From Trueperaceae bacterium (GTDB lineage: Bacteria > Deinococcota > Deinococci > Deinococcales > Trueperaceae): a stretch of 46,907 nucleotides of DNA. Shown here one piece after another: positions 3,227 to 25,108 of the stretch. Under the pieces are notes generated by a model. It searched no databases, was not told where the DNA came from, and worked only from the letters and a program-made list of their open reading frames with translations. A program made the translations under genes and the position numbers. The stretch spans positions 1 to 46,907 of the forward strand of contig PWQI01000208.1 of assembly GCA_003556805.1 (NCBI GenBank). Reading direction: 5' to 3'. Within the stretch, counting starts at the first letter, position 1; each line of letters begins with the position of its first letter.

Positions 3227-3237
3227 GCGCGGCAGGT

Positions 3238-4453: not shown

Positions 4454-4543
4454 GGCGATCGCACGGGCGACCCCGGTCGCTCGACCCCCGTCCACTCGAC
4501 GCGTTCCGAGCGACACCAGCCACTCGACCTTGGAGGTCCACAC

Positions 4544-6094: not shown

Positions 6095-6172
6095 GCGTGA
6101 CGACGATCCAACGCCGCCGGCGGCCGCGCAACCAGCGCTGACGTCGGTGCGGACCACACACACGAGGCGCGC

Positions 6173-7162
6173 GTGAGCGCGGGCCGAGGCACCAAGGCGC
6201 TCGGGGCATACGCCCTCGAGCGCCTCGTCAACGCCGTGCCACTCGTGCTCGGCGTGATCGTGGTCAACTTCCTGCTCATCTCGCTCGCGCCGGGTGACCC
6301 GGTGACGGCCCTCATCGGCGAGTTCCCGGCACCACCGGAGTACGTCGAACGCGTCCGCGCCCAGTACGGTCTCGATCAGAGCGTCCCCGAGCGGCTGGTC
6401 AGGTACCTGGGCAGCGTGGTGCGCGGCGATCTCGGGTTCAGCTTCGCCAATCGGCAGCCCGTGCTCGACCTCGTCGTCCAGCGGCTGGGGCGCACGATGC
6501 TGCTGATGCTCACCACGGTGGTCCTTGCGACCTTCGTCGGCGTCGTCCTGGGTGTGTGGGCGGCCCGTCGCCCGAACTCCGCGGTCGACGGTGGCGCGAC
6601 GGGCTTCGCTCTTGCCGGGTACTCGATCCCCGAGTTCTGGCTGGGCCAGATCCTGATCCTGGTGTTCGCCGTCTGGCTCGGCTGGCTGCCCGCCGGTGGG
6701 TTCCGCAGCATCCGGGCCGAGTACGTCGGACTGGACGCCGTGTGGGACCAAGCGCGGCACATGATCCTGCCGGTGCTGGCGCTGTCGTTTCGCTACATGG
6801 CGATCACGACCCGGTTGACGCGAGCGAGCCTGCTCGAGGTCATGAACGCCGACTACATCCTCGCCGCTCGCGCGCGGGGCCTGTCGGAGCGGCGGGTGTT
6901 GTGGGAGCACGGCCTGCGCGCCGCGGCGCTGCCGATCATCACCGTGATCGGTTACAACTTCAGCTTCATCGTCGCGGGCTCCGCCCTGGTGGAGACCGTG
7001 TTCGGCTGGCCCGGCGTCGGGCGACTGATGTACGACTCGATCTTCACGCGCGACTACCCGGTCCTGCTCGGGATCCTCCTGCTCGTGTCGATCACCGTCA
7101 TCCTGGTGAACCTCGTCACCGACATCGCCTACGCGCTGGCCGACCCACGGGTGCGTTACTGA
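6173..7162 (+). CDS. ABC transporter permease, DppB type
   Basis: Integral membrane permease of 329 aa starting with GTG at 6173. It has the N-terminal helix (VPLVLGVIVVNFLLISLAPG), the APGDPV motif after TM1, GLDQSVPERLVRYLG, RGDLGFSF and the ATPase-coupling loop around ADYILAARARGLSERRVLWEH. About six membrane segments are visible. The C-terminus ends in LVTDIAYALADPRVRY, the canonical DppB/OppB ending. Its stop overlaps the next start (TGATG). It should form a heterodimer with the next gene product. Confidence 0.95.
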   Translation: MSAGRGTKALGAYALERLVNAVPLVLGVIVVNFLLISLAPGDPVTALIGEFPAPPEYVERVRAQYGLDQSVPERLVRYLGSVVRGDLGFSFANRQPVLDLVVQRLGRTMLLMLTTVVLATFVGVVLGVWAARRPNSAVDGGATGFALAGYSIPEFWLGQILILVFAVWLGWLPAGGFRSIRAEYVGLDAVWDQARHMILPVLALSFRYMAITTRLTRASLLEVMNADYILAARARGLSERRVLWEHGLRAAALPIITVIGYNFSFIVAGSALVETVFGWPGVGRLMYDSIFTRDYPVLLGILLLVSITVILVNLVTDIAYALADPRVRY

Positions 7163-8024
7163 TGGCCGCGAGCGCTCCCGCCGCCACGGTCGGCGCCGCC
7201 GCCGTCTGGGGCCAGCTGATGCGTCAGCGGCGCGGTCTCTTGGGACTCGCCATGATCGTCGTGCTGGCGCTCGTCGCGATCCTCGCGCCCTGGCTCGCGC
7301 CGCACGACCCGTTCAGCACCTCTCGCAACGCCTTCCTCCCGCCTGGCAGCGCCGGCCACCTGCTCGGCACCGATCACCTCGGCCGCGACGTGCTCTCGGG
7401 CGTCATCTACGGTTCGCGCGTGTCGCTGATCGTCGGTCTCGCGGCGGCCTTCACGGCCACCGTGATCGGCATCCTCGTCGGCGCCGTCAGCGGTTTCTTC
7501 GGCGGCCTCGTGGACGAGATCCTCATGCGGATCACCGAGCTCTTCCAGATCATCCCGCGCTTCGTGTTGGCGCTGATCGTCGTGGCCTTCTTCGGGTCCG
7601 GGCTCTTCAACCTGATCCTCGTGATCGGCATCCTCAGTTGGCCGCAGACCGCCCGCTTGGTGCGCAGCCAGTTCCTGCGCCACCGCACACTGCCCTACGT
7701 CGACGCCGCGCGCGTGCTCGGGATGCGGCCCGTCAGGATCATCTTCCGGGAGATCCTCCCGAACGTGTTGGCGCCGGTGATCGTCGTCGCGTCGCTGGAC
7801 ATCGCCCAGGCGATCCTGCTCGAGGCGAGCCTCGGCTTCTTCGGCCTGGGTGATCCGAACCTGCGCAGCTGGGGCGGCATGCTGAACACCGCCCAAGGCT
7901 ACGTGCAGCGCGCCTGGTGGATGAGCGTGTTCCCCGGGGTCGCGATCTCGCTCGCGGTGCTCGGCTTCAACCTGTTCGGCGACGGCCTCAACGACGCCAC
8001 CGACCCGCGTCTGCGGAGTGGCTC

Positions 8025-8028
<4 letters not shown>
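7162..8028 (+). CDS. ABC transporter permease, DppC type
   Basis: Second permease of the importer, 288 aa. The ATG at 7162 overlaps the dppB-type stop. Features are an N-terminal helix, APWLAPHDP, HLLGTDHLGRDVLSGVIYG, six predicted helices, the coupling loop YVDAARVLGMRPVRIIFRE and the ending GDGLNDATDPRLR, all typical of DppC/OppC. The stop overlaps the GTG of the following ATPase gene (GTGA), so the genes are likely translationally coupled. Confidence 0.95.
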
Positions 8029-9043
<1,015 letters not shown>

Positions 9044-9047
<4 letters not shown>

Positions 9048-10144
9048 GCTCCGACGCACCCATCATCGCGACCGATGCTCTGGTGAAGCACTTCCCCACG
9101 GGCCGCTCGCTGTTCGGGCGCCGACGCGTCGTCAGGGCCGTCAACGGCGTCGACCTGCACGTCTCGGCCGGCGAGACGCTCGCGCTCGTAGGCGAGAGCG
9201 GCTGCGGCAAGACCACCACCGCCCGCGTGGTGCTCGGACTCGAGCAGCCCACGGGCGGCGGGCTGCGCTACCACGGCACGCCGGTCGGGTCCCTCGACTC
9301 CGAGGCCCGGGCTCGCTTCCGGCGCCGCGTCCAGGTGGTGTTCCAAGACAGCAACGCCTCGCTCAACCCACGCAAGACCCTGCGCGAGATCCTCACCACC
9401 GCCCTGGTCGTGTCGGGCACGATCCCCTCGCGCGCCCGAGCGCGCCTGCGCGAGCGTGTCGCGCAGCTCCTCGACGACGTCGGGCTCAGCCCCGCAGCGA
9501 GCTTCCTCGACCGGCTCCCGCACGAGCTCTCGGGTGGTCAGCGTCAGCGTGTGGGCATCGCGCGCGCCCTGGCCCCCGAGCCCGAGCTGGTGATCGCCGA
9601 CGAGCCCGTCTCGGCGCTCGACATCAGCGTTCGTGCCCAGGTGCTGGAACTGATGGCCCGCATCCAGCGCGAGCGGGGTGTGGCCTTCTTGCTCATCTCG
9701 CACGACCTGGCGGTCGTCCGCCACGTCGCCGCACGGGTGGCGGTGATGTACTTGGGTCGCATCATCGAAGAGGGCCCGGTGGACGCCGTGTTCGGCAACC
9801 CCATCCATCCCTACACCGCCGCGCTGGTCGACGCCACACCGCTTCCCGACCCCCGTCCCGAAGTGCGCGGGCGCGGCCACCTCGACGTCTCGGGTGACGT
9901 TCCCTCGCCGATCGACCTGCCGAGCGGCTGCGCCTTCCACCCCCGCTGCCCCATCGCCGTCGCGCACTGTCGCGAGACGGTTCCCTTGCTGGCGACGCCC
10001 ACAGGCGGCGCCGACCTCGGCGGGCACCGCGTCGCCTGTCATCGCGCCGACGAGCGCGTGGCCGGCCTCGAGCTCCCCATCACCCCGTCTGCCGGCGCCC
10101 CCCCTGCATCCCAGGCGCCGCCCACGAAGGAGTCCCCCGCATGA
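9044..10144 (+). CDS. ABC transporter ATP-binding protein, DppF type
   Basis: Partner ATPase of 366 aa. It has Walker A GESGCGKTT, Q-loop VVFQDSNASLNPR, signature LSGGQRQRVGIARAL, Walker B LVIADEPVSALD and LLISHDLAVV. The C-terminal extension has CAFHPRCP. The start (GTG 9044) overlaps the preceding stop, and the stop overlaps the ATG of the phosphorylase gene, showing that importer and purine genes are one transcription unit. The tail after residue 345 is Ala/Pro-rich and probably disordered. Confidence 0.94.
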
Positions 10145-10893
10145 CCGATGCCCCAGTCGTCCAACGCCACATCCGCACCGCACCCGGAGACGTCGCGCCG
10201 TACGTCCTGATCCCCGGCGATCCGGGGCGTGCCGAGCGCATCGCCGAAGCGTTCGGCAGCGCCACGCTCGTCGCTCGCCATAGGGAGTACGTCCTCTACA
10301 CCGGCACCACGCCGGCGGGCACGCCGATCAGCGTCTGCTCGACCGGCATCGGTGGGCCCTCGGCCTCGATCGCCGTCGAAGAGCTCATCCGCGTGGGCGC
10401 GACCCACTTCATCCGCGTCGGCTCCGCCGGTGGTCGACGCCCCGGACTCCCGATCGGCTCCGTCGTCGTGGTCACGGGCGCCTACCGCGGTGACGGCACC
10501 TCGCTCGACTACATGCCGTTGCCGTTCCCGGCCGTGGCCGACCTCGACGTCACGCTTGCCCTCCGACACGCCGCCGAGGCGGAACTCGGGGAGCGCGCAC
10601 TCGAGGGCATCGTCTACACCCGCGACGCCTTCTACCGCCGCGATGACGGTCTCAACGCGTTGCTGACGGCCAGCAACGTGGTGGCCGCCGAGCAGGAGTG
10701 CGCCACCGTCTTCGTCGTCGGCGCCGTGCGCGGGGTCAAGGTCGGCGCCGTCCTCGGCACCGACAGCAACATCCTGCTGAGCGAACAGCCGACGCAGGCC
10801 GAGAAGGAGGCGATCTTCCAGCGCGCCGAGGCGACCACGATCCAGATCGCCATGCGGGCCGTCGACGACCTCCACGCGGCGCGGCGCACGTGA
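10141..10893 (+). CDS. Nucleoside phosphorylase (uridine/purine phosphorylase, NP-I family)
   Basis: A 250-aa cytoplasmic enzyme that cleaves a nucleoside with phosphate to base and ribose-1-phosphate. The phosphate-binding motif IPGDPGRAERIAE, the family signature CSTGIGGPSASIAVEEL and GATHFIRVGSAGG are clear, and the fold length is right for Udp/DeoD. The IPGDPGR and GIGGPSASIA forms look closest to uridine phosphorylase, but adjacency to adenine deaminase leaves purine specificity open. ATG 10141 overlaps the previous stop, and the next gene starts on its last codon. Confidence 0.9.
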   Translation: MTDAPVVQRHIRTAPGDVAPYVLIPGDPGRAERIAEAFGSATLVARHREYVLYTGTTPAGTPISVCSTGIGGPSASIAVEELIRVGATHFIRVGSAGGRRPGLPIGSVVVVTGAYRGDGTSLDYMPLPFPAVADLDVTLALRHAAEAELGERALEGIVYTRDAFYRRDDGLNALLTASNVVAAEQECATVFVVGAVRGVKVGAVLGTDSNILLSEQPTQAEKEAIFQRAEATTIQIAMRAVDDLHAARRT

Positions 10894-12623
10894 GCGCCGC
10901 CGTTCGGCGCGACACCCTGGTCACGGACGCCACCATCGTCGACGTGATCACGCAGAGCACGTACCGCGGCTGGTTCGCCATCCAGCGCGGCCGCTTCGTC
11001 GAGGTCGAGGCGGGCGACGCGCCCGACGAGCGCGTGGTGAGCGCCACCGAGGTGCTCGACGCCGCGGGCGCTTACGTGGTGCCAAGCCTCCTCGACGTCC
11101 ACATGCACATCGAGAGCAGCCTGGTCACCCCGCGCCGCTTCGCCGAGGCCGTGCTGCCCTGGGGTACGACGACGGTGCTGCAAGACCCGCACGAGATCGG
11201 CAACGTGCTCGGTCCCAAGGGCATCCTGTGGATGATCCATGCCGCCCGCGGTCTGCCGTTGCGTGTGCTCTCGGCGATCCCGAGTTGCGTCCCCGCGACG
11301 TCGGCCGAGCTCGAGACACCGAACGCCAGCATCACCCCCGACGACGTCGTGCGGCTGGCCGAGGAGCCCGGCGTGGTCGCGTTGGGCGAGATGATGGACT
11401 TCCAGGGACTGATCACAGGCGATACGCACCTACAAGGGATGCTCGCCGCCGGCGCCGCGGCCGGACTCAGCCTCGAGGGGCACGTCCCGACGCTCACCGG
11501 ACCCGACCTGTCGCGCTACGTCGCGCACGGCATCCGCTCCGACCACACCCTCATGACGCCGACGAAGCTGCACGAACAGCTCCGTAAGGGGCTGTGGGTG
11601 ATGGTGCAGGAGAAGTCGCTCAGCAGCGAGCTGGTGGACGCCGTCATGGCTCTGCGAGATCGGAGCCGCGTCATGCTGATCACCGACGACGTGATGCCCA
11701 ACCGCCTGGTCGGCGGCCACATGAGCCGGCTGATCACGACCGCGGTGTCGCTCGGATGGGACCCCCTCGACGCCCTCGCGGCCGCGACGCTGCGCCCGGC
11801 GACCTACCTCGGTCTCGACGACCTGGGCGCCATCGCCCCGGGCAAGCAGGCCGACTTCCTCGTGATGGACGACGTCACCGCGTTCCCGCCACAGCTGGTC
11901 TTCCGCGGCGGTGAGCGCGTGGCCGAGGGCGGCCGTGCGCGTCCAGTGGCCGTCGAGACGCCCAACGCGCCGTTCCTCGCCAGCCCGTACCGCGTCGAGC
12001 ACGTCCCAGCGGAGCGCTTCGCGCTGCCGACCGGCCCCGGCGAGCGTGAGGTCCGCGCGCGCGTCATCGCCGTGAACCAGGTCAACAGCTTCACCACCCT
12101 GGACGAACGCCTCGTCCACGTCTCGGACGGTGTGCCGCGCGACGACGACCTGGCACTGGCGACCGTCATCCCACGGGCGTCGCTCGTCGAAGCCGCTCCC
12201 GAGCGGCTCGAGATCGGCCTGGTGTCCGGCCTCGGGCTCGAACGCGGCGCCTGGGCGGCGACCTTCGCTCACGACAGCCACAACGTGTTCGTGCTCGGCC
12301 GCACGCCGCGTGCGATGCAGGAGGCGCTCGACGCGCTCCTCGCCCTGGGCGGCGGCATGGTCGTCGTGCCCGGCGACGGGGCCACACCGGTGTCGCTGCC
12401 GTTGCCGCTCGCGGGGCTGCTCAGCGACGAGCCGATCGACGCCGTTGCCGAGCTGTTCGACGCGTTGGAGCAGGCCTTGCGCGACGCCGGCGTCGGCGTC
12501 AAGCACCCCGTGCTCCTCCTGACGCTGCTCCCGCTGACCGTCAGCCCGGGCTGGAAGCTCAGCGACAAGGGCGTGGTCGACGTGGCCGGCAGACGCGTGC
12601 TGCCGACGCTGATCGACGCGTGA
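10890..12623 (+). CDS. ade: Adenine deaminase
   Basis: Cytoplasmic metal-dependent amidohydrolase of 577 aa, the family's usual size, converting adenine to hypoxanthine and ammonia. Key motifs are DVHMHIESSLVTPRRFAEAV (metal-binding H-x-H), WGTTTVLQDPHEIGNV, ALGEMMDFQGL, LEGHVP, RSDHTLM and LITDDVMPN. The C-terminal adenine-deaminase domain has VNQVNSF and FAHDSHNVFVLG. GTG 10890 overlaps the phosphorylase stop. Together with the phosphorylase it would carry out adenosine to adenine to hypoxanthine salvage. Confidence 0.95.
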   Translation: MSAAVRRDTLVTDATIVDVITQSTYRGWFAIQRGRFVEVEAGDAPDERVVSATEVLDAAGAYVVPSLLDVHMHIESSLVTPRRFAEAVLPWGTTTVLQDPHEIGNVLGPKGILWMIHAARGLPLRVLSAIPSCVPATSAELETPNASITPDDVVRLAEEPGVVALGEMMDFQGLITGDTHLQGMLAAGAAAGLSLEGHVPTLTGPDLSRYVAHGIRSDHTLMTPTKLHEQLRKGLWVMVQEKSLSSELVDAVMALRDRSRVMLITDDVMPNRLVGGHMSRLITTAVSLGWDPLDALAAATLRPATYLGLDDLGAIAPGKQADFLVMDDVTAFPPQLVFRGGERVAEGGRARPVAVETPNAPFLASPYRVEHVPAERFALPTGPGEREVRARVIAVNQVNSFTTLDERLVHVSDGVPRDDDLALATVIPRASLVEAAPERLEIGLVSGLGLERGAWAATFAHDSHNVFVLGRTPRAMQEALDALLALGGGMVVVPGDGATPVSLPLPLAGLLSDEPIDAVAELFDALEQALRDAGVGVKHPVLLLTLLPLTVSPGWKLSDKGVVDVAGRRVLPTLIDA

Positions 12624-13768
12624 CGGCGGCCGCCGCCCTGCGCGCGCGCCTGCGCGACGACCTGCTTGCGCTCTGCGCGATCCCCAGCCCGAGCCGAGCC
12701 GAGCGGTCCGTGGTCGACCACGTGGCCGCCGCGTGCCGTGCGCTCGGCGCCAGCGTGCGCGAGGACGACGCGGGCCAGCGCGTGGGCGGCGACGCCGGCA
12801 ACCTGATCGCCGAGCTCCCGGGCGGCCGGCCCGAGCGCGTGCTCCTGAACGCCCACGTCGACACCGTGCCGCTGGTCCCCGGCGTGCTGCTCGAGCCTGT
12901 CGCAGAGGCCGCGGACGACAGCGCCGGCGAAGGCGTGATCGTGCGCTGCCGCGACCCTCAGGTGCTCGGTTCCGATGACAAGGCCGGCGTCGCGATCGTG
13001 CTCGAGCTCATGCGGCGCGCCGCGGCCACCCCCGTGGGCGACCGGCCGACCCTGCTCGCGGTCTTCACGATCGGAGAGGAGCGCGGTCTGCAGGGGGCGC
13101 AGCATCTCGACGTGGCGGCGCTGCGTGCCGACCTCGGCTTCGTCTTCGATGGCGAGGTCGGCGTCGGCGAGGTGATCGGTGCCGCCGTGTACAAGCAGGC
13201 ACTCACGCTGCGCGTGCTCGGTCGGCGCGCGCACGCGGCGCTCGAGCCGGAGCGCGGCGTCCACGCCCTGCTCGCCGCCGCGGCCGTGGTCCAGGCCTTC
13301 CCGCTCGGGCGCGACGGCGACGTGGTCGCCAACCTCGGGCGCGTCGAGGGTGGCGGCGCGAGCAACGTCGTGCCGGACGAGGTGATGCTCACGGGCGAGG
13401 CACGCGCCTTCGACGAGCGTGTGCTCGAGGCGCTCCTCGAGCACATCGAGCGGGTCGCCCACGAGGCCGTCAGGCCGCTCGGGGCGTCGGTCGAGTTCGC
13501 GAGCGAGCGGCTCTACGACGGCTACGACCTCGGTGACGATGCGACGCCTTTCGCATGGCTGCGCGCCGCTGCGCCCGCGCACGGCATCGAGCTCAAGAAG
13601 GTGCGCTCGATCGGAAGTTCGGACACCAACGTCTTCAACCAGCGTGGCGTACCCACCGTCAACGTCGGGATCGGCATGCACGACATCCACTCGGTCGACG
13701 AGTGGATCGACGTCCGCGACCTCGCTCGGGCGTGCGGTTGGGTGGGCGACGCCCTCGGACTCGGCTGA
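12620..13768 (+). CDS. M20 family metallopeptidase (PepT-like)
   Basis: A 382-aa zinc hydrolase. The di-zinc ligands appear in NAHVDTV, LGSDDKAG, TIGEERG and HDIHSVDE, and the dimerisation domain begins near residue 190 with GAAVYKQALTLRVLGRRAHA. The layout resembles tripeptidase PepT and related M20 enzymes more than M20 amidohydrolases. GTG 12620 overlaps the adenine deaminase stop, so it closes the importer/purine operon. The substrate is unknown; it could process imported peptides or a conjugated nucleoside. Confidence 0.9.
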   Translation: MTAAAALRARLRDDLLALCAIPSPSRAERSVVDHVAAACRALGASVREDDAGQRVGGDAGNLIAELPGGRPERVLLNAHVDTVPLVPGVLLEPVAEAADDSAGEGVIVRCRDPQVLGSDDKAGVAIVLELMRRAAATPVGDRPTLLAVFTIGEERGLQGAQHLDVAALRADLGFVFDGEVGVGEVIGAAVYKQALTLRVLGRRAHAALEPERGVHALLAAAAVVQAFPLGRDGDVVANLGRVEGGGASNVVPDEVMLTGEARAFDERVLEALLEHIERVAHEAVRPLGASVEFASERLYDGYDLGDDATPFAWLRAAAPAHGIELKKVRSIGSSDTNVFNQRGVPTVNVGIGMHDIHSVDEWIDVRDLARACGWVGDALGLG

Positions 13769-13826
13769 CGCAGCGGCCTGCTCTCGGGTGGGGTCGCCGT
13801 CAGGTGCGGAGCGTGCCTCGCGGGCG

Positions 13827-13832
13827 TACATT
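13827..13832 (+). promoter_or_regulatory. Leaderless -10 box of the thioredoxin-like gene
   Basis: TACATT is followed by 6 nt and the ATG at 13839, with no ribosome binding site between. Confidence 0.5.
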
Positions 13833-13838
13833 GAACCC

Positions 13839-14318
13839 ATGCCTGACCAGGTGCGCGTTCTCGAACCGTGGCTCGGCGACTGGGTCCAGGGCCCGCAGCT
13901 CGGGCCACCGAGTTCGTGGGGCCGACCCGGCATCGCCCTCCTGTTCAACCTCGAATGCGCTGGTTGCGTCTCACGCGCGGTCCCCTGGCTCAAGCGCGCC
14001 GAGCCGGGCCTGCGCGACCACGCCATCGTGTTCGCCGTGCATACCGCCTACGGGCACCGGGTGCTCGGGCGCGACGCGGTCGTGCCGAACCTCGAGCGCT
14101 TCGCCCGCGACTTCGCGCGCCTGCCGTTCCCGGTCGCGCTCGATCGCACCGGCGATTGGGCCGAGGAGATGGGCGCCCAGGGAACCCCGCACTGGTTCGT
14201 GTGGAGCGCCGACGGCGCCGTCGAGCGCAGCGTGTACGGTTCCCAGGAGAACGCGCTGACCCGCCTCGAGTACGTGCTCGAGGCGTGGGGCGCACCGTCC
14301 GACGAGCCGAACGGGTGA
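13839..14318 (+). CDS. Thioredoxin-like (TlpA/peroxiredoxin-fold) protein, cytoplasmic
   Basis: A 159-aa protein with no signal peptide. A C40-A-G-C43 pair sits after the first beta strand (LLFNLECAGC), and a cis-Pro motif GTPHWFVW lies near residue 120, followed by the strand that ends thioredoxin folds. HTAYGH before the middle of the protein resembles TlpA/redoxin proteins. It is probably a thiol reductase or redox carrier; the partner is unknown. It has its own leaderless promoter and converges with sbcC, whose stop lies 16 nt away. Confidence 0.75.
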   Translation: MPDQVRVLEPWLGDWVQGPQLGPPSSWGRPGIALLFNLECAGCVSRAVPWLKRAEPGLRDHAIVFAVHTAYGHRVLGRDAVVPNLERFARDFARLPFPVALDRTGDWAEEMGAQGTPHWFVWSADGAVERSVYGSQENALTRLEYVLEAWGAPSDEPNG

Positions 14319-14333
14319 TCGCCTCCGTGCCCG

Positions 14334-17300
14334 TCACTCGTTGACGCGAACCTCCAGTCGGCTGCCGCCTTCGCCTGCGCTCACGACCAGCTGCACCGGG
14401 ATGAGACGCTTGAGGTCCTCGACGTGGCTGATGACGCCGATCAACCGGCCCGCCGTGTGCGGCAGCGTCCGCAACGTGTGCGTCACCTGGTCGAGGGTGG
14501 CCCGGTCCAAGCTGCCGAACCCCTCGTCGATGAAGAGCGCCTCGATCGGGTGGCGCGAGCGTTGCGCGATGTCGGAGAGCCCGAGTGCCAACGCCAGCGC
14601 CGCCAGGAACCCCTCGCCGCCGCTCAGCGTCCGCGCCGGTCGGCGCACGCTGTCGACGAAGTGGTCTGCGACCTCCAGGCCGAGGCCGCTCGCGCTCGCC
14701 GAGGTGGTGTCGCGGACAAGGTGCAGGGTGTAGCGCCCCGCCGTCATCTCGCGCAGGTGCTGGTTGCCGACCTGCAACACGTCGTGGAACTGGCGCTGGA
14801 GGACGAAGGTCTCGAGGTCGACCTTGGGACGACCCGGCACGGTCCCACCGGCAAGCCGGGCGAGGCGCGTCGCGGCCGAGAGCTTCGCCTCCAGCGCCCG
14901 ATACGCCGCGTCGGCTTCGTCGAACGCTGCGGCCTGGCGGGCGAGCCTGTCGTGCGACCGTTGCGCTGCCGAGAGGGCCTCGTCGGCTTCGCGCCAGGCG
15001 GTGTGCGCTGCTGCGAGCGCCTCTGCGACGACCGCCAGGTCGGGTCGCTCGACGTCCGCCAGCGCGGCGCCGAGCTCGTCGCGCTGGGCCGTCGCGCGTG
15101 CTCGCGCCTCGTCGTGGGCGTCGATGCGCCCCTCGAGGTCGGAGATGGTGGGCTCGTCGAGGCGAGCGGCGATGAACGCTGCCTCGTCGGCGAAGCCGCC
15201 CGCCTCGAGGCCGTGGGCGAACGCCTCCTCGGCCTCGCGAGCGTCGCGTTCGCTCGCCGCGTGCCGCGACGCGCGTTCCTCGAGCCGCGAGGCGATCGCG
15301 GCGAACTCCCGTCGGGCGTCCGCCTCACGCTCCGTCGCCTGCGACAGCGCGTGCTCGAGCGCATCGGCGTGGGCCGTGGCCGCTGCTAAACGCTCGAGGA
15401 ACCGCTCGGTGTCGGCGGCGTCGGCCGGGAGCTTCGCGAGCGTTCGGTCGATGTCGCGCTGATGCGCGGCCGCGTCGGCCTCGTCGCGGCCGATGGCGAG
15501 CGTGATGGCGTTCAGGCGCTCATCAGCGGACTCCGCCTCCTGGCCGAGCGCCTCGAGGCGTCGCTCGATCTCCACGATGCGCTTCGCCGCCGCCTGGGCG
15601 CTCGTGAACGCGTCCGTCGCGTCGGCGAGGTCGCGCTCCAGGGCTGCGGTGTCGGGACGCCCCTCGGGCCAACCCTGCTCTGCGAGCGCCGCGTCGCGCT
15701 GCGAGCGGTGCAGCTCCAGCGTCGCCTCGAGGCCGGCCCGCTCCTGTTGGAGCGCCTGGAACCGGTGCAGGGCCGCTTCGAGTGCTGCCGGCTCGGTCGC
15801 GGTGTGCGGTGCCGGGTGGTGCGTGCTGCCGCAGACGGGGCAGGGCTCGCCGTCGACCAAGCCGACGCTGACGAGACCGGCGGCGTTGGAGCGGAGCAGA
15901 TGCAACAGGGTGCCTGCGCCCTCATCGTGATCGTCACCGGCCTCGAGGCGTTCGAGGTGGACGGTGGCGTCGGCGATCCTAGCCTCCAGCGAGACGATCG
16001 CCGCCAGCGCAGCGCTGCGCCGCTGGCACGCCTCACGACGCTCGCGCGCTGCCTCGAGGGCATCGGCGCTCACGCGGCGCGTCTCACGCTCGCCTCGCAG
16101 GCCGGCTCGCTCGGCGTCGAGCGTCTGGCGCTGCTCGCGCGCTCGGTCGAACTCGGAGCGTGCGGCGGCGATGCGTTCACGGAGGGCGGCGTGCTCCGAG
16201 CGCTGCGTGCCGAGGCCGCGAACGTCGGGCTCGAGGGCCGTCAAACGCTGCACGAGGTCGCGCGCCTCGCTGCGCTCCCGATCTCGGCCGCGCCCGGTGG
16301 CGAGCTCGGCGACGGCCGTCTCGTGGCGCGCCCGAGCCGCCACCTCCTCCTCGCTGGTGGCGTCCCTCGCGACGAGCGCCGCGTCCCGCTCGGCATGCGC
16401 TCGGGTGCGTCGCTCGAAGGCGACCTCGAGCCGCAGAGCCCGCCGAGCCACACGGAGGCGCTCACGCTCCGCCTGGATCGCGGCCTCGTCGGCCTCGATC
16501 CTGCGTAGGCGTTCCACGTGTTCGTCGAGCTGCTCGAACCGCGCCAGCGTGGCCTTCGCCTCGAGTTGCCGCGCGTGGGCGGCGTCGCGCGCGGTCTCAC
16601 GCTGCGTGCGCAGGGCGATCGCGTCGCTGAGCGCGGCCTCGGCTTCCTTCAGGGTGTGCTGGAGGGCCTCGCGGTGCGCGACGCCGGCCTGCTCGAGCAC
16701 CTGGTCGCGCGCGCGGCGTTGCGCCTCGCCCGCCTGGTTGAGTTCGCTGGCGATGCCCTTGAGGTGGGTCGTGAGATCGGCGAAGCGCTGCGTGTCGAAC
16801 AGGCGCTTGAGGATTGCCTCGCGGGCCTTGTCGTCGGTCACCACCTCGCGGAACTGGCCCTGCGGCAGCACCACGGTCTGACGGAACTGCTCGACGCCCA
16901 GCCCGAGCAGCGACTGGACGGCATGGCTCGCCTCGGTCGACTTCTCGGCCAGGGTCTCGGCGACGCCGCCGGTGGCGTCGAGACGCTCGAGTCGCGCCTC
17001 GGCCTGACGCGTGACGCCCGCGCTGCCGTCGCCCCGGGTGCGGGCCACCTGTTGGGTCGGATGGCGCACGACGCGATAGCGGGAGGTGCCGACGGCGAAC
17101 TCGAGCTCGACGCTGGTGCGCTCCAAGGGGGCGAGGCTGCTCACGAAACTCGAACCGCCGCGCTCGGGTCCGCCCTTGGCGTCGCCGAAGAGCGCGAAGG
17201 TCATCGCGTCGAGGAGCGTGCTCTTGCCAGCGCCCGTGGGGCCATGGATCAGGAACATGCCGTGTCGGCCGAGTCGATCGAAGTCGACGGTGACGCTCCC

Positions 17301-19363: not shown

Positions 19364-20032
19364 ATGCCCGGTGAGCGCATCCTGATCGTCGAGGACGAGG
19401 CTCGGATCGCTGCGGTGCTCGAGCGCTACCTGCGCGCCGAGGGGTTCCAGGTCGAGCGCGCAGGCGATGGCAAGCGTGCGCTCGAGCTGTGGCGGGCGGC
19501 GTCGCCCGACCTCATCCTGCTCGACCTGATGCTGCCCGAGATCGACGGCGTCGCCGTGGCGACGCACATCCGCGCGACGTCGGACGTACCTATCATCATG
19601 CTGACGGCCAAGGTGGAGGAGGACGACCGGCTGACCGGCCTTGGCGTCGGTGCCGACGACTACGTGACCAAGCCGTTCAGCCCGCGTGAGGTGGTGGCGC
19701 GCGTCCACGCGGTCCTGCGGCGGGCGTCCGGGCAGGTTCGAAGCGCCCGTCAGCATGCGGTCGGTGCGTTGAGGATCGACCTCGACGCCTTCGCGGCGTA
19801 CTGCGGCGAGACGCGCTTGGAGATCAGCCCCACGCAATTCCGTATGCTCGCCGCACTCGCGGCCCGAGCCGGCGTTGCCCTGCGGCGCCAGGAACTGCTC
19901 GAGGGTCGGGCCGACGGCTTCACCGACGTCCGCACGGTCGACGCGCATGTGAAGAACCTGCGCCGTCGGCTGGGTGCGTGTGCCGAGCAGCTCGAGACGG
20001 TCCGCGGCGTCGGCTACCGGTTGCGACCGTGA
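19364..20032 (+). CDS. OmpR-family response regulator
   Basis: DNA-binding regulator of 222 aa. The receiver domain (residues 1-115) has the acidic pair E10-D11, phosphoacceptor D54 in ILLDLMLP, T81 and K103 in TKPF. The winged-helix domain (about 130-222) has LEISPTQFRMLAALA, TVDAHVKNLRRRLG and the ending VRGVGYRLRP. It is followed without gap by its histidine kinase (GTGA overlap). Likely targets include the small secreted protein upstream, by analogy with CpxR/BaeR systems; this is inference. Confidence 0.93.
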   Translation: MPGERILIVEDEARIAAVLERYLRAEGFQVERAGDGKRALELWRAASPDLILLDLMLPEIDGVAVATHIRATSDVPIIMLTAKVEEDDRLTGLGVGADDYVTKPFSPREVVARVHAVLRRASGQVRSARQHAVGALRIDLDAFAAYCGETRLEISPTQFRMLAALAARAGVALRRQELLEGRADGFTDVRTVDAHVKNLRRRLGACAEQLETVRGVGYRLRP

Positions 20033-21144
20033 GCCTCGCGGTCCGCGTGTTGCTCACCGTGGCGCTCACGGCGCTCTTCTCGGCCAGCCTGACGGGGTAC
20101 CTGAGCTATCGCGCGGCGTCGGAGCGCGTGCCGCGGGCGTTCGGCGTGGCGCAGGCCCCCCGCGGCGGGGGTCCCGGGGGTGCCGGGCCTTTCGCAGAGC
20201 CCGGTGGTGCGATGGGCGCATCGCGGGCGCTGCTGGCCGAGCTGCAAGGGGCGACGTTCAGCGCCGCCGCGATCGCTCTCGTCGTGGCCATGGCGGTGGG
20301 TGGCTGGATCGCGCTGCGAGCGAGCCGTCCGATCTCACGTGTGGCGGAGGTCACGCGGCGCTACGGCGCCGGCGAACGCTGGGTGCGCGCGGAACCGAGC
20401 GGTCCGACGGAAGTCGTGGCGCTGGCGCGTGTGTTCAACGACACCGCAGATCGCCTGCAGGCCGAAGAGGACCAGCGGCAGCGCTTCACGACCGACGTGG
20501 CGCACGAGCTGCGCACCCCGCTCACCGTCCTCAAGAGCGAACTCGAGGCTCTACAGGACGGGCTCATGCAGCCCGACGACGAGACCCTGCAGCAGCTCCT
20601 GCAGCAGGTCGACCTCCTCGGTCGCCTGGTCGCCGATCTGCGCCTCGTGACCCTGGCCGAAGCCGGTGAACTGACCCTGCATCGCCAGCGGCTCGACCTC
20701 GGTGCGCTCGCGCGTGAGGCGGGCGCTGCCTTCCAGGCCCGTGCCGCCAGTGCCGGCGTCGTGCTGCGCATCGACGCCGAGCGTGTGGTGGTGGACGCCG
20801 ATGCGGAACGGCTGCGGCAGGTGCTCAACGCGCTCGTCGACAACGCGCTGCTCCACGCAGCGCAGAGCACCACGGTCGACGTCGTGGTACGGCGTGACGG
20901 TGAGCGAGCCGTGCTCGAGGTGCTCGATGACGGGCCAGGCATCGCCGCGCAGGAGGTGCCGAACGTGTTCCGACGCTTCTACCGAGTCGACGCCTCGCGT
21001 CGTCCTGGAACTGGCGGCTCGGGTCTCGGACTGTCGATCGTGGCGGCGATCGTCGCGCTCCACGGGGGTACCGTGGACGTCTTGCAGCGCGCCGAGGGTG
21101 GGGCCCGGTTGCGCGTCGAACTGCCGTGTGCGCCCGATGCCTGA
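20029..21144 (+). CDS. Sensor histidine kinase (HAMP-HisKA-HATPase, BaeS/CpxA type)
   Basis: Membrane sensor of 371 aa. TM1 is about residues 5-24 and TM2 about 78-96; the short external loop between them is Gly/Pro-rich (R45-G-G-G-P-G-G-A-G-P), a poor candidate for a folded ligand domain. A HAMP linker leads to the phosphoacceptor H159 in DVAHELRTPL. The ATPase domain has N-box LVDNAL, G1 DDGPGI, F-box FRRFYR and G2 GGSGLGLSIV. GTG 20029 overlaps the regulator stop. Signals are probably sensed within the membrane or through the neighbouring secreted protein. Confidence 0.93.
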   Translation: MSLAVRVLLTVALTALFSASLTGYLSYRAASERVPRAFGVAQAPRGGGPGGAGPFAEPGGAMGASRALLAELQGATFSAAAIALVVAMAVGGWIALRASRPISRVAEVTRRYGAGERWVRAEPSGPTEVVALARVFNDTADRLQAEEDQRQRFTTDVAHELRTPLTVLKSELEALQDGLMQPDDETLQQLLQQVDLLGRLVADLRLVTLAEAGELTLHRQRLDLGALAREAGAAFQARAASAGVVLRIDAERVVVDADAERLRQVLNALVDNALLHAAQSTTVDVVVRRDGERAVLEVLDDGPGIAAQEVPNVFRRFYRVDASRRPGTGGSGLGLSIVAAIVALHGGTVDVLQRAEGGARLRVELPCAPDA

Positions 21145-21193: not shown

Positions 21194-21204
21194 CCATGCT
21201 GAGC

Positions 21205-21666
21205 ATGTCCCACCACACCTGGAACTACCAACGCGCCCTGCGCGCTGCCGGCTACCGGGTCACGCATCAGCGGGAACTCGTCATGGACGTGATCTGTGAG
21301 AGTGGGGGTCGGATGAGCGCGCGAGAGGTGTGCACGGCGGTACGGAGGCGCGAGGCGACGGTCAACGACGCGACGGTGTACCGGAACCTGCACTTCCTGA
21401 GCGAGCGTGGGCTGATCCGGCCAGTCGAGCAGCAAGGGCAGACGCACTACGAACTGGCCGGGCCCAACCCCGCGCACCATCATCTCGCGTGCCGCGTCTG
21501 CGGCGCCGAGCGGGAGGTGCATCATGACGTTACAGACGCGTTCTATGGCCTCGTCGAGGAGCGCTTCGGGTTCCGTGTCACCAGCGACCACCTGGTGCTC
21601 GAGGGACTGTGTGAAGTGTGCGTGAGGGCGTCCGGGACGAATGCCGCTGTCACCCATCGACGTTGA
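21205..21666 (+). CDS. Fur-family metalloregulator (Fur/Zur/PerR)
   Basis: A 153-aa repressor. The N-terminal winged helix has GYRVTHQRELVMDVI and NDATVYRNLHFLSERGLI. The C-terminal dimerisation domain has the regulatory His-rich segment AHHHLACRVCG, a structural zinc pair C-R-V-C and a second pair C-E-V-C near the end. The metal specificity (iron, zinc or peroxide sensing) cannot be decided from sequence. The ATG at 21205 is chosen over 21196 because of the promoter position. A perfect inverted repeat lies at its 3' end, in front of the operon it most likely controls. Confidence 0.88.
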   Translation: MSHHTWNYQRALRAAGYRVTHQRELVMDVICESGGRMSAREVCTAVRRREATVNDATVYRNLHFLSERGLIRPVEQQGQTHYELAGPNPAHHHLACRVCGAEREVHHDVTDAFYGLVEERFGFRVTSDHLVLEGLCEVCVRASGTNAAVTHRR

Positions 21667-21694
21667 CAAATGATTCTTGGGTCGGAAGAATCGT
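21663..21694 (+). promoter_or_regulatory. Promoter with palindromic operator for the membrane/DOMON operon
   Basis: TTGACA (21663-21668) overlaps the stop of the Fur-family gene. GATTCTT (21672-21678) and AAGAATC (21686-21692) form a perfect 7-bp inverted repeat with a 7-bp spacer; extending one step outward gives one mismatch and then another match. AAGAAT at 21686 is a possible -10 at 17-bp spacing. The palindrome thus fills the space between -35 and -10, where a repressor would block RNA polymerase. Its AT-rich arms, in very GC-rich DNA and next to a fur-type gene, suggest a Fur-family box. No T-run follows, so it is less likely a terminator. Confidence 0.6.
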
Positions 21695-21779
21695 AGGTGA
21701 GGCTACAGAGCTTCGGTCCTGACCGTGCATCAACGCGCTGCCGCGATGGGCACGGTTCCTACACCCGAGGAGGTGCTCC

Positions 21780-22223
21780 GTGATACCCGCGCTTCGAAGC
21801 GCAACGAACACGACTGCACGTACGCTCGAGATCGTCCGGGTCGTGCTCCTGCTGTTGATCTTGGGAGCGTTCGTCATGTACCCGGTCGAACTCTTCATCA
21901 TCGGCCACTGGCTCGACTCGTGGGAGTCGTTGATCCCGTTCTGGATCACCATCCCAGGTGTGATCTTCACCGTCTGGATCTTCTTCGATCGCAAGACCCC
22001 ATGGGTGCGCTGGGCGTTCATCATCACCATGTGGGCGGCCATCGTCACCGGCCTGGTCGGTGCCTACTGGCACTGGATCTGGAACATGGAGGACACCCGG
22101 GGCATCGCGTGGAACTGGTCGTACGCGATGGATCAATTCCACGGCTTCCGTCCCGTCTTGGCAGCGATGGCCTACACCAACATGGGTGTGACCGGCCTCG
22201 CCTGCATCTTCCGGGCGCGATAG
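21780..22223 (+). CDS. Four-helix membrane protein A (paralogue of the next gene)
   Basis: A 147-aa integral membrane protein with predicted helices at about 16-36, 50-69, 77-100 and 123-145. I do not recognise a named family. It aligns with the following protein along its whole length: Y34-x-V-E37-x-x-x-I-x-H43-W-x-D-S, P-F-W-x-T-x-x-G, H98-x-I-W-N and F-R-P-V-L-A-x-x-A-Y-T-N-x-G-x-x-G-L. The shared E37, H43 and H98 are candidate metal or heme ligands. The GTG start is set by a strong GAGGAGG site. It is first in a three-gene operon behind a Fur-type operator. Confidence 0.75.
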   Translation: MIPALRSATNTTARTLEIVRVVLLLLILGAFVMYPVELFIIGHWLDSWESLIPFWITIPGVIFTVWIFFDRKTPWVRWAFIITMWAAIVTGLVGAYWHWIWNMEDTRGIAWNWSYAMDQFHGFRPVLAAMAYTNMGVTGLACIFRAR

Positions 22224-22232
22224 GAGACCGCG

Positions 22233-22760
22233 ATGCTTGAACGTTGGATGAACGCCAAGACCGAGGAGGGCAAGGTCCTCGGGTTCCTGCAGAACTTCTT
22301 CTTGCTCATCGCCGCATTCGGCTTCTTCTTCTATGGTGTCGAGCACTGGGTGATCGACCACTACATGGAGAGCTTCTGGGCGCGCTGGCCGTTCTACGTG
22401 TCGATGATCGGGTTCCCGCTCGCGATCGTCATGTTCTTCACCACACACAAGGCGGTGCGTCTACCGTTCACCATCTGGATGGTGGTATCGGTCCTGACCG
22501 GGTTCGCTGGTGCGTTGCTGCACCTGATCTGGAACGCCAACGACCTCGGGGTCAGCCTGTTCACCATCTCCGGTCTCCTGGAGTCGTTCCAGGTCCCGTA
22601 CCGCCCGGTCCTCGCCGGACTCGCCCATACGCACGTCGGCGCCGTCGGCTTGGTCGTCGGCTTGACCGCCGCCGTCAAGGAGTCTTCATCGTCCTCCGCG
22701 CCTCCACACACGGCGCCGCGCGATACTGCGGTAACTCGCACCGAAAGGAACGCCCCATGA
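22233..22760 (+). CDS. Four-helix membrane protein B (paralogue of the preceding gene)
   Basis: A 175-aa membrane protein with helices at about 16-36, 52-68, 76-98 and 122-146, then a polar Ser/Pro/Thr-rich tail. Residues Y34, V36, E37, I41 and H43 fall at the same numbers as in protein A, followed by E46-S47, P52-F53-Y, H96-x-I-W-N and Y-R-P-V-L-A-x-x-A-H131-T-H133. Extra histidines (H38, H71, H131, H133) are present in this copy only. The two proteins probably pair in the membrane. TAGGAGA precedes the ATG, and the stop overlaps the ATG of the DOMON gene. Confidence 0.75.
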   Translation: MLERWMNAKTEEGKVLGFLQNFFLLIAAFGFFFYGVEHWVIDHYMESFWARWPFYVSMIGFPLAIVMFFTTHKAVRLPFTIWMVVSVLTGFAGALLHLIWNANDLGVSLFTISGLLESFQVPYRPVLAGLAHTHVGAVGLVVGLTAAVKESSSSSAPPHTAPRDTAVTRTERNAP

Positions 22761-23320
22761 TCAAGCTCATCACCGCCACCGTCTTCGCCCTCCTCATCAG
22801 CTTCGCCGTTGCGCAGCCCACCATCGACGGCGCCATCGCCGACGGCGAGTACGCCAACACCGTCACGCACGACGACTCCGGCATGGTCGTGTACTGGACC
22901 ATCGACGACGACATGATCTACATGGGCTTCACGCTCGAGGCGCGCGGTTTGGTCGGTATCGGCTGGGGTGACGAGATGACCAACCGCAAGGCCGGCTTCG
23001 ACGTCATCATCGTGACCGAAATGGACGGCGAGTTCGTCGCGCTCGACATGTTCCAGGAGAGCGCCCGCGGCGAGCCGGTGCTCGATAGCGAAGAGGGCGG
23101 CAGCAACAGCATCGTCGACTTCGCGGCGAGCCACGAAGGCGACCTCTGGACCGTCGAGTTCTCCCGCCCGCTCGACACCGGTGAAGACACCGACGTGGCG
23201 ATCACGCCCGGCACCCCGATGATCTTCATGGGCGCCTACGCCAACGTGATGGATCCGAGCCGTGCGCACGGCCGCAGCACGCAGGGCGGCGCCTGGTACA
23301 TCGAGGACTTCACCTTCTGA
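22757..23320 (+). CDS. Secreted DOMON-domain protein
   Basis: A 187-aa protein with a Sec signal peptide (cleavage after A-V-A before Q20) and one DOMON-like domain. The pattern TIDGAIADGEYANT, GMVVYWTIDDDMIYMGF, GWGDEM, and the late segment with P-S-R-A-H-G-R-S matches secreted DOMON proteins, which can bind heme b through a Met and a late His. H near residue 172 is the candidate heme His. GAAAGGA lies before the ATG, which overlaps the upstream stop (ATGA). It probably works outside the membrane with the two four-helix proteins, for example as an electron or heme/metal carrier. Confidence 0.75.
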   Translation: MIKLITATVFALLISFAVAQPTIDGAIADGEYANTVTHDDSGMVVYWTIDDDMIYMGFTLEARGLVGIGWGDEMTNRKAGFDVIIVTEMDGEFVALDMFQESARGEPVLDSEEGGSNSIVDFAASHEGDLWTVEFSRPLDTGEDTDVAITPGTPMIFMGAYANVMDPSRAHGRSTQGGAWYIEDFTF

Positions 23321-23430: not shown

Positions 23431-23913
23431 TCAGACGGCGCGGTGCGGACGGGTCGGGATCACGCGGACGAACACGTACAGCTGGATCAGCGCCGCGCCG
23501 GCCAGGAACGCGCGCAGCGGCCACGACGGGACCAGCCAGATGGCCGTCGCGAGCATGAGGCTCCAGCTGAACGCGATGGTGGCGGCCTTGAACCGCAGCG
23601 TCAGGCCTCGGCCGCTCTGCAGGTCGTGGAGCAGCGGACCGAAGCGCTTGTGCTCCATGAGCCAGCGATGGAGACGGGGGCTGCTCCGCGCGAACGCGAA
23701 CGCGGTGAGGAGCAGGAACGGCGTGGTCGGGATGCCCCGCACCACGATGCCGATCATCGCGAGTGTGAACGTCAGGCAACCGAAGGCGAAGTACGCCGCT
23801 CGTACGAGCGGGTTCGCTGCCGGTCCCGTTGCTGCGGCTGGCACGGCGACGACCCGGTCGGGCGGAGGCGAGCGCTTCGACGCGGGCTCGTGGGGAGGCT
23901 CGGAAGCGGCCAT
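23431..23913 (-). CDS. DUF454 (YbaN) family inner-membrane protein
   Basis: A 160-aa protein with a polar N-terminal stretch of about 35 residues and then the YbaN pattern: FAFGCLTFTLAMIGIVVRGI, PTTPFLLLTAFAFARSSPRLHRWL, FGPLL and a helix pair at about 115-150. The family is widespread, membrane-embedded and of unknown function. The ATG at 23913 has a TACGCT box 8 nt upstream, so the transcript is probably leaderless. It converges with the DOMON gene. Confidence 0.85.
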   Translation of the reverse strand: MAASEPPHEPASKRSPPPDRVVAVPAAATGPAANPLVRAAYFAFGCLTFTLAMIGIVVRGIPTTPFLLLTAFAFARSSPRLHRWLMEHKRFGPLLHDLQSGRGLTLRFKAATIAFSWSLMLATAIWLVPSWPLRAFLAGAALIQLYVFVRVIPTRPHRAV

Positions 23914-23921
23914 CAGGCATG

Positions 23922-23927
23922 AGCGTA
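23922..23927 (-). promoter_or_regulatory. Leaderless -10 box of the DUF454 gene
   Basis: On the minus strand TACGCT is followed by 8 nt and the ATG at 23913. Confidence 0.45.
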
Positions 23928-23950
23928 GCCCTGGTTGGGCGACCGGTCAA

Positions 23951-24056
23951 CGTGTACGCGACACGGTGGCGAGCGGACTCGATGGACGAGTGTCCCTGCG
24001 GACCGCGTCGCTAATGTGGACAATGGAGTCCAGGAACCCCCGGCCATGAAGGCCGG
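23951..24056. promoter_or_regulatory. Divergent regulatory region before the DUF2249 gene
   Basis: This short intergenic region holds three small inverted repeats: CGTGT-N5-ACACG (23951-23965), ACTCG-N5-CGAGT (23977-23991) and CCGGCC-N5-GGCCGG (24040-24056). TAATGT at 24012-24017 is a possible -10 for the DUF2249 gene; the last hairpin would then be in its 5' leader just before the ribosome binding site. No regulator can be named. Confidence 0.35.
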
Positions 24057-24071
24057 TCGAGGAGGACCGTC

Positions 24072-24323
24072 ATGCATCCAACCGTCCCCGCCGTGGACAC
24101 GATCACCATCGACGTTGCGAGCCTGCCAGCTGGCTCGTGCCGCCAGACCATCGAGAACACCTTCGAGTCGCTCGCACCTGGCGCCGCCCTCGAGATCGTC
24201 GTCGACCACGACCCCGCACCCCTGCGGCAGCGCTTCGCGTCGACGCGTCCGGGCGCCTCACAGTGGACGTACCTCGAAGCGGGACCGACGACCTGGCGTG
24301 TCCGGGTGGAGCGGCTCGCCTGA
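24072..24323 (+). CDS. DUF2249 domain protein
   Basis: An 83-aa cytoplasmic protein. The pattern TITIDVASLPAGSCRQTIEN, F-x-S-L-A-P-G-A-A-L-E-I-V-V-D-H-D-P-x-P-L, and the ending W-R-V-R-V-E-R matches DUF2249, a small alpha/beta domain common near nitrogen-oxide respiration and hemerythrin genes. The biochemical role is unknown. GAGGAGG sets the ATG. The YwiC-like gene starts 14 nt after its stop, so the two are probably cotranscribed. Confidence 0.82.
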   Translation: MHPTVPAVDTITIDVASLPAGSCRQTIENTFESLAPGAALEIVVDHDPAPLRQRFASTRPGASQWTYLEAGPTTWRVRVERLA

Positions 24324-24337
24324 CGTCGGCACACCGC

Positions 24338-25108
24338 GTGCGCCTCCGCACGGTCGCACTCCCCGTCGAGCACGGCGCGTGGGGCTTTCTCCTCGAGCCC
24401 GCGCTCCTCGGGCTCCTGGTCGCGTGGAGTTCCGCGGGCGTGGCACTCGTGATCGCGGGGCTGGCCGCGATCGTGCTCCAGACCCCCCTCAGCCTGGCGC
24501 TCAGCGACGTGCGGCGGCGGCGCGTCTACCCGAGGACCGGCCTCGCCTGGCGCTTCGTGGCCTTGTACGGCGTCATCCTCGGCGCCGCGGTGGTGGTGGC
24601 GATCGTGCTGGCGGGCACACCCGCGATCCTGGTACCCGCGCTCATCGCGGTGCCGCTCGCGCTCGGGCAGCTCTGGTTCGACGCGCACGGGCGCTCGCGC
24701 GAGTTCGCCCCCGAGGTGCTCGGCGCGCTCGCCATCGGGTCGCTCGCCTCCTGCATCGCCGTCGCCGCCGGGTGGAGCATCGTTGCTGCGTTGGGCCTAT
24801 GGGCGCTGCTCGCCGCCCGGAGCGTCCCCACGATCGCGTACGTGCGGGCGCGCTTGCGCCTCGAGCGCGGCCACACCGTCGACCCCACGCGTGTGTGGGC
24901 CATGCACCTGCTCGCGTTGGCGCTCGTGGCGGTCGCCGTGGCGTTCACCGATCTCGCCTGGCTCGTCCTCGTCCCGTATGTGGCGCTGGCTGGCCGCGCG
25001 GCGCTGGGCGTGTCGCGCCTGCGTGTCAGCGTGCCGGCCAAGGTCATCGGTTTCCGCGAGCTCGGCTTCGGCGTCGCGCTCGTCGCGCTCCTCGCTCTCG
25101 TGCTCTGA
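24338..25108 (+). CDS. YwiC-like membrane protein
   Basis: A 256-aa integral membrane protein with about seven hydrophobic segments. The N-terminal motif ALPVEHGAWGFLLEPALLGL (P-x-E-H-G-x-W) and the later GQLWFDAHGRSREFAPEVLGA are characteristic of the YwiC-like family. In Bacillus ywiC lies near the nitrate-respiration genes narK and fnr; the function is not established. The GTG at 24338 is the first start after the DUF2249 stop and places the family motif close to the N-terminus. Confidence 0.8.
   Translation: MRLRTVALPVEHGAWGFLLEPALLGLLVAWSSAGVALVIAGLAAIVLQTPLSLALSDVRRRRVYPRTGLAWRFVALYGVILGAAVVVAIVLAGTPAILVPALIAVPLALGQLWFDAHGRSREFAPEVLGALAIGSLASCIAVAAGWSIVAALGLWALLAARSVPTIAYVRARLRLERGHTVDPTRVWAMHLLALALVAVAVAFTDLAWLVLVPYVALAGRAALGVSRLRVSVPAKVIGFRELGFGVALVALLALVL

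Follow-up and report, generated by a model that had tools for sequence, protein, structure and literature searches.

The window examined here, the contig PWQI01000208.1 of a Trueperaceae bacterium (Deinococcota; assembly GCA_003556805.1) analysed over its full 46,907 nucleotides (nt), carries an operon whose three genes, A, B and C, encode two paralogous four-helix membrane proteins and an exported protein with a DOMON domain. Our best explanation, offered tentatively and with slightly less than even confidence, is that A-B-C constitutes a membrane module that would oxidise quinol and, through a DOMON carrier of heme-b type, feed electrons to periplasmic reductases. This interpretation draws on the conservation of the three genes as a set, on invariant residues shared by A and B at the predicted outer face of the membrane, and on the gene order in Thermus, where A-B-C and an NrfD-type membrane subunit occur in a complementary pattern beside genes for a TtrBA-type reductase.

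A conserved three-gene cassette

Gene B was detected in 31 of 111 Deinococcota genomes, and a strong match to A in the same 31, while three more genomes have a weak A-like match only. A match to C accompanies B in 30 of the 31, being split over two frames in one of them (G069); in G077 the contig ends at this place. The recurrent linkage with a DOMON gene, which an earlier reading of the window from its letters alone (hereafter the sequence-only reading) had suggested looking for, thus holds across the cassette. In the named genome collection, A-B-C occupies 19 loci (eight from Thermus, one from a Meiothermus metagenome-assembled genome (MAG), nine from Trueperaceae MAGs and one from an Armatimonadota MAG), and as far as the contigs reach the order is A-B-C in every one. 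Among the Armatimonadota genomes searched, one of 43 possesses the cassette, a copy that may reflect either transfer to or from that phylum or a binning error. In addition, a DOMON gene distantly resembling C is present in six further Deinococcota genomes in which neither A nor B has a strong match.

Judging by searches of the open-access literature, this conserved set is apparently undescribed: no report there joined DOMON with tetrathionate reductase, none combined DOMON, b561, ferric and axial ligand, and for DOMON with Deinococcus no title among the matches listed concerned A-B-C.

The membrane proteins A and B

Profile comparison with hhalign establishes A and B as homologues (probability 99.9, E 5.8e-37, 143 columns, 30% identity), in accordance with the ancient duplication proposed by the sequence-only reading. 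Both were aligned in 33 rows (18 of A, 15 of B), leaving out the B proteins of loci L084, L085, L088, L089 and L100 and the truncated A proteins of L092 and L100. Y34, E37, H43, H98 (H97 in the numbering of B), N102 and R124-P125 are invariant throughout these rows, so that the residues singled out earlier as shared are indeed conserved in all of them. B possesses further invariant histidines, H38 and H132, as well as H134, a position that is likewise histidine in 11 of the 18 A rows. Conserved cysteines are absent from A, B and C.

The AlphaFold2 model of A, with a predicted local distance difference test score (pLDDT) of 90.3 and a predicted TM-score (pTM) of 0.84, has long helices at residues 11-41, 48-69, 74-106 and 126-143. 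The charges of the connecting segments differ: per sequence, lysine plus arginine against aspartate plus glutamate amount to 0.15 vs 1.45 in the loop after helix 1 and to 1.42 vs 3.45 in the long loop after helix 3, as opposed to 2.5 vs 0.6 in the loop after helix 2, and to 2.2 vs 1.5 at one terminus and 1.6 vs 0.2 at the other. By the positive-inside rule, these loop charges predict that both termini lie inside and that Y34, E37, H43, H98, N102 and R124 face outward. The earlier claim of conserved glutamate and histidine within the membrane is therefore sustained with respect to conservation, but not with respect to a mid-membrane position, since the rule places these residues at the outer ends of the helices.

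No relatives of A or B were found in Pfam, NCBIfam, PHROGs or the PDB, in agreement with the initial impression that the composition matches no described system. Matches to Holin and 8xMP for A and B (E 0.054 and 5.9) fell under the cut-offs, and a calicivirus polyprotein match of one of the 33 A/B members (E 0.0059) was taken as chance. Similarly, Foldseek recovered no known fold for the A model at E <0.001. The best Z score obtained for this model with VIA-align, 9.5, is in the range that this tool gives for unrelated helical bundles; NrfD and b561 were not among the best 50 rows of that comparison, a result that neither claims nor excludes a relation. Viral contigs yielded no relative of B or C, and plasmids none of B or of a distant homologue at locus L078. 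Profile comparison does, however, connect A and B with a wider family (hhalign probability 98.5), seen in five genomes, which retains the motif glutamate, the two histidines and the asparagine.

Complementary occurrence of A-B-C and NrfD in Thermus

In Thermus, A-B-C is frequently found next to genes for a two-subunit reductase, whose large subunit has TtrA as its best NCBIfam match (7.5e-117) and whose small subunit matches TtrB best. The canonical TtrABC enzyme includes an NrfD-type subunit, as described in a passage of PMC8076601. The TtrA copies fall into two types. The first comprises 12 copies with at least 78% identity to an ABC-linked query; NrfD adjoins none of them, A-B-C adjoins ten, and in these ten the TtrA match ends 76-89 nt from A. 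For the other two (G072 and G065) A-B-C lies on another contig, so that all 12 genomes carry the cassette; the G065 genome is 65% complete and its TtrA frame contains 4 stops. Of the remaining 17 TtrA copies, with at most 70% identity to the query, 16 have NrfD adjacent and none has A-B-C, the seventeenth (G027) being a fragment; two TtrA pieces in G018 were counted as one. Among the loci that were retrieved, six read TtrB-NrfD-TtrA and five TtrB-TtrA-A-B-C, and the latter share, beyond TtrBA, a PhnD-like gene, a kinase and, where the sequence was read far enough, a LuxR-type regulator. (Neighbouring genes were called throughout with simple gene callers and scanned in part with Pfam, so that lists of neighbours can miss genes.) The two types of TtrA are fully separated in a tree of 12 sequences (support 100/100). 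Loss of NrfD beside the ABC-linked TtrBA would be the simpler reading of this pattern, but it is no proof, because the tree is rooted only at its midpoint.

Across 27 Thermus genomes (G062 counted as Thermus; the genome lists for B and YedE read by eye), 11 have both A-B-C and TtrA of the NrfD-less clade, seven A-B-C only, nine neither and none this TtrA alone (Fisher p 0.003, in a test that ignores kinship). The mutually complementary pattern of NrfD and A-B-C beside TtrBA now backs the electron-transfer function which the sequence-only reading had put forward as a hypothesis.

Some individual loci merit description. In G072, a DUF4397 protein follows the NrfD-less TtrBA (L122:5696-6358). Thermus sp. 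2.9 (G069) has kept A and B beside fragments resembling a ttr-type sensor and regulator (L134:7688-8349; one of the kinase/regulator fragments has a GerE match, the other no Pfam match), and neither TtrA nor YedE was found in this genome. Perhaps this is a decaying respiratory locus, in which the split frame of C might also be a sequencing error; a joint decay of TtrBA and A-B-C would favour our explanation.

A second neighbour in Thermus is a YeeE/YedE-family gene (PF04143), which lies 3' of C in 14 of the 18 ABC-carrying genomes (the copy in G050 is cut by the contig end). YeeE/YedE (TsuA) imports thiosulfate, and together with TtrBA as a neighbour it could indicate that A-B-C is itself a sulfur-compound:quinone oxidoreductase, converting for example thiosulfate to tetrathionate and tied in Thermus to this type of import. 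We regard this as improbable, the least likely of the explanations considered here: four of the nine Thermus genomes without A-B-C possess the YedE family as well (with 14 of 18 among those that have the cassette, YedE was rejected as an obligate partner), A, B and C offer no conserved cysteine, and Trueperaceae YedE genes, among the matches listed, stand on contigs other than that of A-B-C. YedE is a separate protein outside the conserved three-gene set, and beside the cassette in Trueperaceae loci outside the window's genus neither TtrBA nor YedE was recognised.

The DOMON protein C

The sequence-only reading described C as a secreted DOMON protein, and the searches agree. C matches Pfam DOMON (PF03351) with E 3.7e-18 and 66.3 bits, against a cut-off of 32.7, and EB_dh (PF09459) with E 5.4e-6 and 27.1 bits, under the cut-off of 33.3; its signal peptide was seen by eye. 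The C profile also matches a stretch of 55 residues of NxrC in the PDB (1.8e-6). The model of C (overall pLDDT 81.4) has a cytochrome-like predicted fold. Its best structural match is the DOMON domain of DBH (Z 15.4, root-mean-square deviation (rmsd) 2.8, 145 aligned), followed by EbdC (Z 12.9, rmsd 3.1, 158 aligned), NxrC (Z 12.0, rmsd 3.2, 159 aligned) and the cytochrome of fungal cellobiose dehydrogenase (Z 11.5, rmsd 3.1, 146 aligned).

In an alignment of 18 C rows, which excludes the disrupted C of L088, H171 is invariant, as it is in all 11 rows of an alignment with distant relatives; K78 is likewise invariant in 18 of 18 rows, in a part of the alignment with a 13-residue gap. In EbdC, the heme ligands are methionine and lysine according to a passage of PMC8840923. 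Given this precedent, the invariant H171 and K78 and the matches to cytochrome-type folds, binding of heme b by C is plausible. A DOMON protein of MtrA-DOMON type is known in another context, as a passage of PMC8805035 indicates.

A possible electron-transfer route

If A-B-C acts as we tentatively propose, A and B would sit side by side in the membrane as two four-helix bundles, and menaquinol would be bound at the periplasmic face, where Y34, E37, H43, H98 and R124 of each chain are predicted to lie. Electrons would pass from quinol at A/B to heme b in C and onward to a periplasmic acceptor. In Thermus this acceptor would most likely be TtrB-TtrA, with electrons travelling through the iron-sulfur (FeS) clusters of TtrB to the molybdenum site of TtrA; A and B together would replace the two four-helix repeats of NrfD (TtrC), and the docking of C onto the iron-sulfur subunit would resemble that of EbdC within ethylbenzene dehydrogenase.

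The likeness to NrfD/TtrC (PF03916) of complex iron-sulfur molybdoenzyme (CISM) reductases lies in the niche that A-B takes in the gene order beside TtrBA (in Thermus, not in the window), in the two four-helix units and in a conserved set of histidine, acidic and tyrosine residues on the predicted outer face. A passage of PMC8076601 describes NrfD as two repeats of four helices each, the first of which holds the quinone site on the P-side, and names histidine, asparagine, aspartate and tyrosine residues for it. Unlike NrfD, A and B are encoded as distinct paralogues and occur with a DOMON gene. Similarly, C resembles the heme-b gamma subunits EbdC and NxrC of the type II dimethyl sulfoxide (DMSO) reductase family in its predicted fold, its export signal and a possible carrier role at the FeS subunit, but it has no confirmed Met/Lys or Met/His ligand pair, and its gene neighbours encode membrane proteins and, in Thermus, a TtrA-type enzyme.

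Several observations weigh against this proposal. A and B have no Pfam match to NrfD, and the hhalign probability of the comparison is 0.5. The Thermus TtrA scores 391 bits against a curated cut-off of 1750, for which reason tetrathionate as the substrate is a guess. The Thermus counts are not independent because the genomes are related, and other NrfD genes located elsewhere in most of these genomes could serve TtrBA. No TtrA match (E up to 1e-50) was obtained in the window's genome, in the ten other genomes with A-B-C from the same family, in the Meiothermus MAG or in seven Thermus genomes, two of which have the NrfD-linked type of TtrA. Consequently TtrBA cannot be the sole partner of A-B-C, and in its absence C must deliver electrons to some other acceptor. 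With regard to C, the methionine of its distant relatives is absent, H171 lies in a region of low model confidence (pLDDT about 52 from residue 171 to 187, with a mean of 52 for 171-180), and the DOMON domain of DBH, which C matches best in structure, is not known to be a heme protein. The proposal is least secure for the organism of the window itself, since nothing in the locus names an electron acceptor.

Operon layout and local regulation

The open reading frames of A, B and C lie exactly where the sequence-only reading had placed them, in a tight operon with a gap of 9 nt between A and B and an overlap of 4 nt (ATGA) between B and C (Table 1). The end of a Fur-family gene precedes the start of A by 113 bp, and a sensor kinase and a response regulator are encoded further upstream; the kinase start as listed falls within the response regulator gene and is perhaps placed too far upstream.

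Table 1. Coordinates of the A-B-C operon and of its upstream elements in the window
Feature	Position	Strand	Remarks
OmpR-type response regulator	19364-20032	+	Pfam Response_reg 4e-31, Trans_reg_C 2e-15
Sensor histidine kinase	19978-21144	+	HAMP, HisKA, HATPase (Pfam)
Fur-family regulator	21196-21666	+	156 aa; Pfam FUR 2e-21, 76.8 bits vs cut-off 23.1
Promoter-like TTGACA-N17-AAGAAT	21663-21691	+	10/12 consensus bases
Perfect inverted repeat GATTCTT-GGGTCGG-AAGAATC (7-7-7)	21672-21692	.	overlaps promoter
A	21780-22223	+	147 aa, GTG start, GGAGG site upstream (by eye)
B	22233-22760	+	175 aa, paralogous membrane protein
C	22757-23320	+	187 aa, exported DOMON protein

The promoter-like pattern occurs once, against a mean of 0.4 in shuffled sequence. 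The inverted repeat that overlaps it is the sole match in the window at up to 2 mismatches and the sole site in the 3.5-Mb genome at up to 1 mismatch, and is present in none of 100 shuffles. TTGACA is identical in two relatives of the same genus (L098 and L094), in which the second hexamer reads AAGAAT and GAGAAT, respectively, and the core of the palindrome, GATTC-N11-GAATC, is retained in both. The repeat is likely an operator, to which one of the upstream regulators may bind, and its single occurrence in window and genome, along with the core kept in the two relatives, makes the site look specific to this operon.

A Fur gene and a 7-7-7 palindrome directly upstream, as the sequence-only reading had stated, are thus present in the window. 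Operators of the Fur family are typically of the 7-1-7 type, which the 7-7-7 palindrome does not fit, and the Fur-family protein reaches no NCBIfam cut-off for Fur, PerR or Zur. Furthermore, the link is not a general feature. Response regulator, kinase and Fur gene follow one another upstream of A-B-C in the window, L098 and L094, and kinase and Fur gene in L035; the response regulator is the first gene of this upstream set in the window's genus, and Fur adjoins A-B-C in all four ABC-carrying genomes of the genus. By contrast, the collection scan found a Fur match in only two of the 19 loci, both from this genus (two of the 19 lack sequence upstream of A), and Fur was beside A-B-C in none of 14 other loci, one of which ends inside A, and none of seven further ones. 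Since Fur was found beside A-B-C only in the window's genus, metal control would be local at most. As part of our explanation as a whole, and with the same confidence short of even, we suppose that a two-component system, a Fur-type regulator and one operator place the window's operon under local control.

These regulatory features could alternatively point to a split bacterial counterpart of the DOMON-cytochrome b561 reductases, which would pass electrons outward to periplasmic ferric or cupric ions and, in the window's genus, be controlled by the Fur-type regulator. Plant and animal DOMON-cytochrome b561 proteins pair an outer DOMON domain with membrane helices, as A-B-C does, and the Fur-type gene and unique operator directly upstream, as well as distant relatives near copper genes in some loci (L123, L078), would suit such a role. 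We nevertheless consider it unlikely, if the most credible of the alternatives. A and B are two separate four-helix chains with another histidine pattern and without a Pfam match to b561 at E up to 10; apart from Fur in this one genus, the neighbours of A-B-C that were scanned with Pfam include no metal family; Fur was not found outside the genus; and the TtrBA pattern in Thermus would be left unexplained.

On the 3' side of the operon, the window (23431-25108) contains a DUF454 gene on the minus strand, DUF2249 and YwiC-like genes, which are retained in L098 and L100. DUF2249 and YwiC are common near anaerobic respiration genes.

Distant relatives and their genomic contexts

Distant homologues of A and B occur in varied surroundings. 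At L077 (3526-5191) such a gene is divergent from two Rieske genes, one with a match to a twin-arginine translocation (TAT) signal, and from a two-component system. At L078 an A/B-like gene accompanies a multicopper oxidase (Pfam) and, by eye, HMA and CsoR-like genes. L123 has a copper cluster of CueP, a multicopper oxidase and a P-type ATPase together with a C-like DOMON gene; L123 and L127 (~1200-16500) also encode a remote A-like protein (E 0.007 and 0.001, respectively), which in L123 is ~4 kb from the C-like gene, with YceI, cytochrome c7 and DUF5666 between them. In L079 and L080 (Trueperaceae genus g10), a distant A/B homologue stands behind a helix-hairpin-helix gene (by eye) near a two-component system, in addition to a full A-B-C. 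The Rieske and copper contexts suggest that members of this membrane protein family frequently work with redox proteins of the periplasm, and the proximity to multicopper oxidase and copper genes keeps explanations based on metals alive.

Besides metal reduction, one could thus envisage that the conserved glutamate, histidine, asparagine and arginine sites of A and B bind metal, and that A-B-C handles copper or another metal, in insertion or transport, with C as its redox or binding partner. The invariant outer-face glutamate and histidines, the extra histidines of B and the copper context of some distant relatives are in keeping with this idea, as are YtkA/FixH and genes that we read as a NosFY-like ABC-2 transporter near A-B-C in the Armatimonadota MAG. 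We judge it quite unlikely, somewhat more so than metal reduction, given that A, B and C are devoid of conserved cysteine, that the NrfD pattern indicates electron transfer, and that A-B-C is present in only two of the 14 genomes that encode the nos propeller family; a general link to nos, which the Armatimonadota MAG had suggested, was rejected on the same count. That MAG (L093) also encodes, upstream of A-B-C, a 378-aa EB_dh protein (5.5e-26) and two small membrane proteins without a Pfam match (5540-6676 and 4149-5140), a set that stands behind ABC-transporter, YtkA/FixH and Rrf2 genes.

Implications

In its most far-reaching form our proposal, namely A-B-C as a quinol-oxidising module with a DOMON carrier, would make A-B a membrane anchor of a new class that oxidises quinol, shares no sequence kinship with known anchors and has an NrfD-like two-repeat layout, and C a carrier with unusual Lys/His ligation of heme b; the module would have displaced NrfD in a tetrathionate-type reductase of Thermus and would serve other periplasmic reductases elsewhere. 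We advance this extended version with considerable doubt. To our knowledge, only few kinds of membrane subunit link the quinone pool to periplasmic molybdoenzymes. If true, the proposal would supply a function for a membrane protein family without a Pfam or NCBIfam entry, and A-B would be one more such link, a two-gene unit standing where NrfD is missing and travelling with a DOMON protein.

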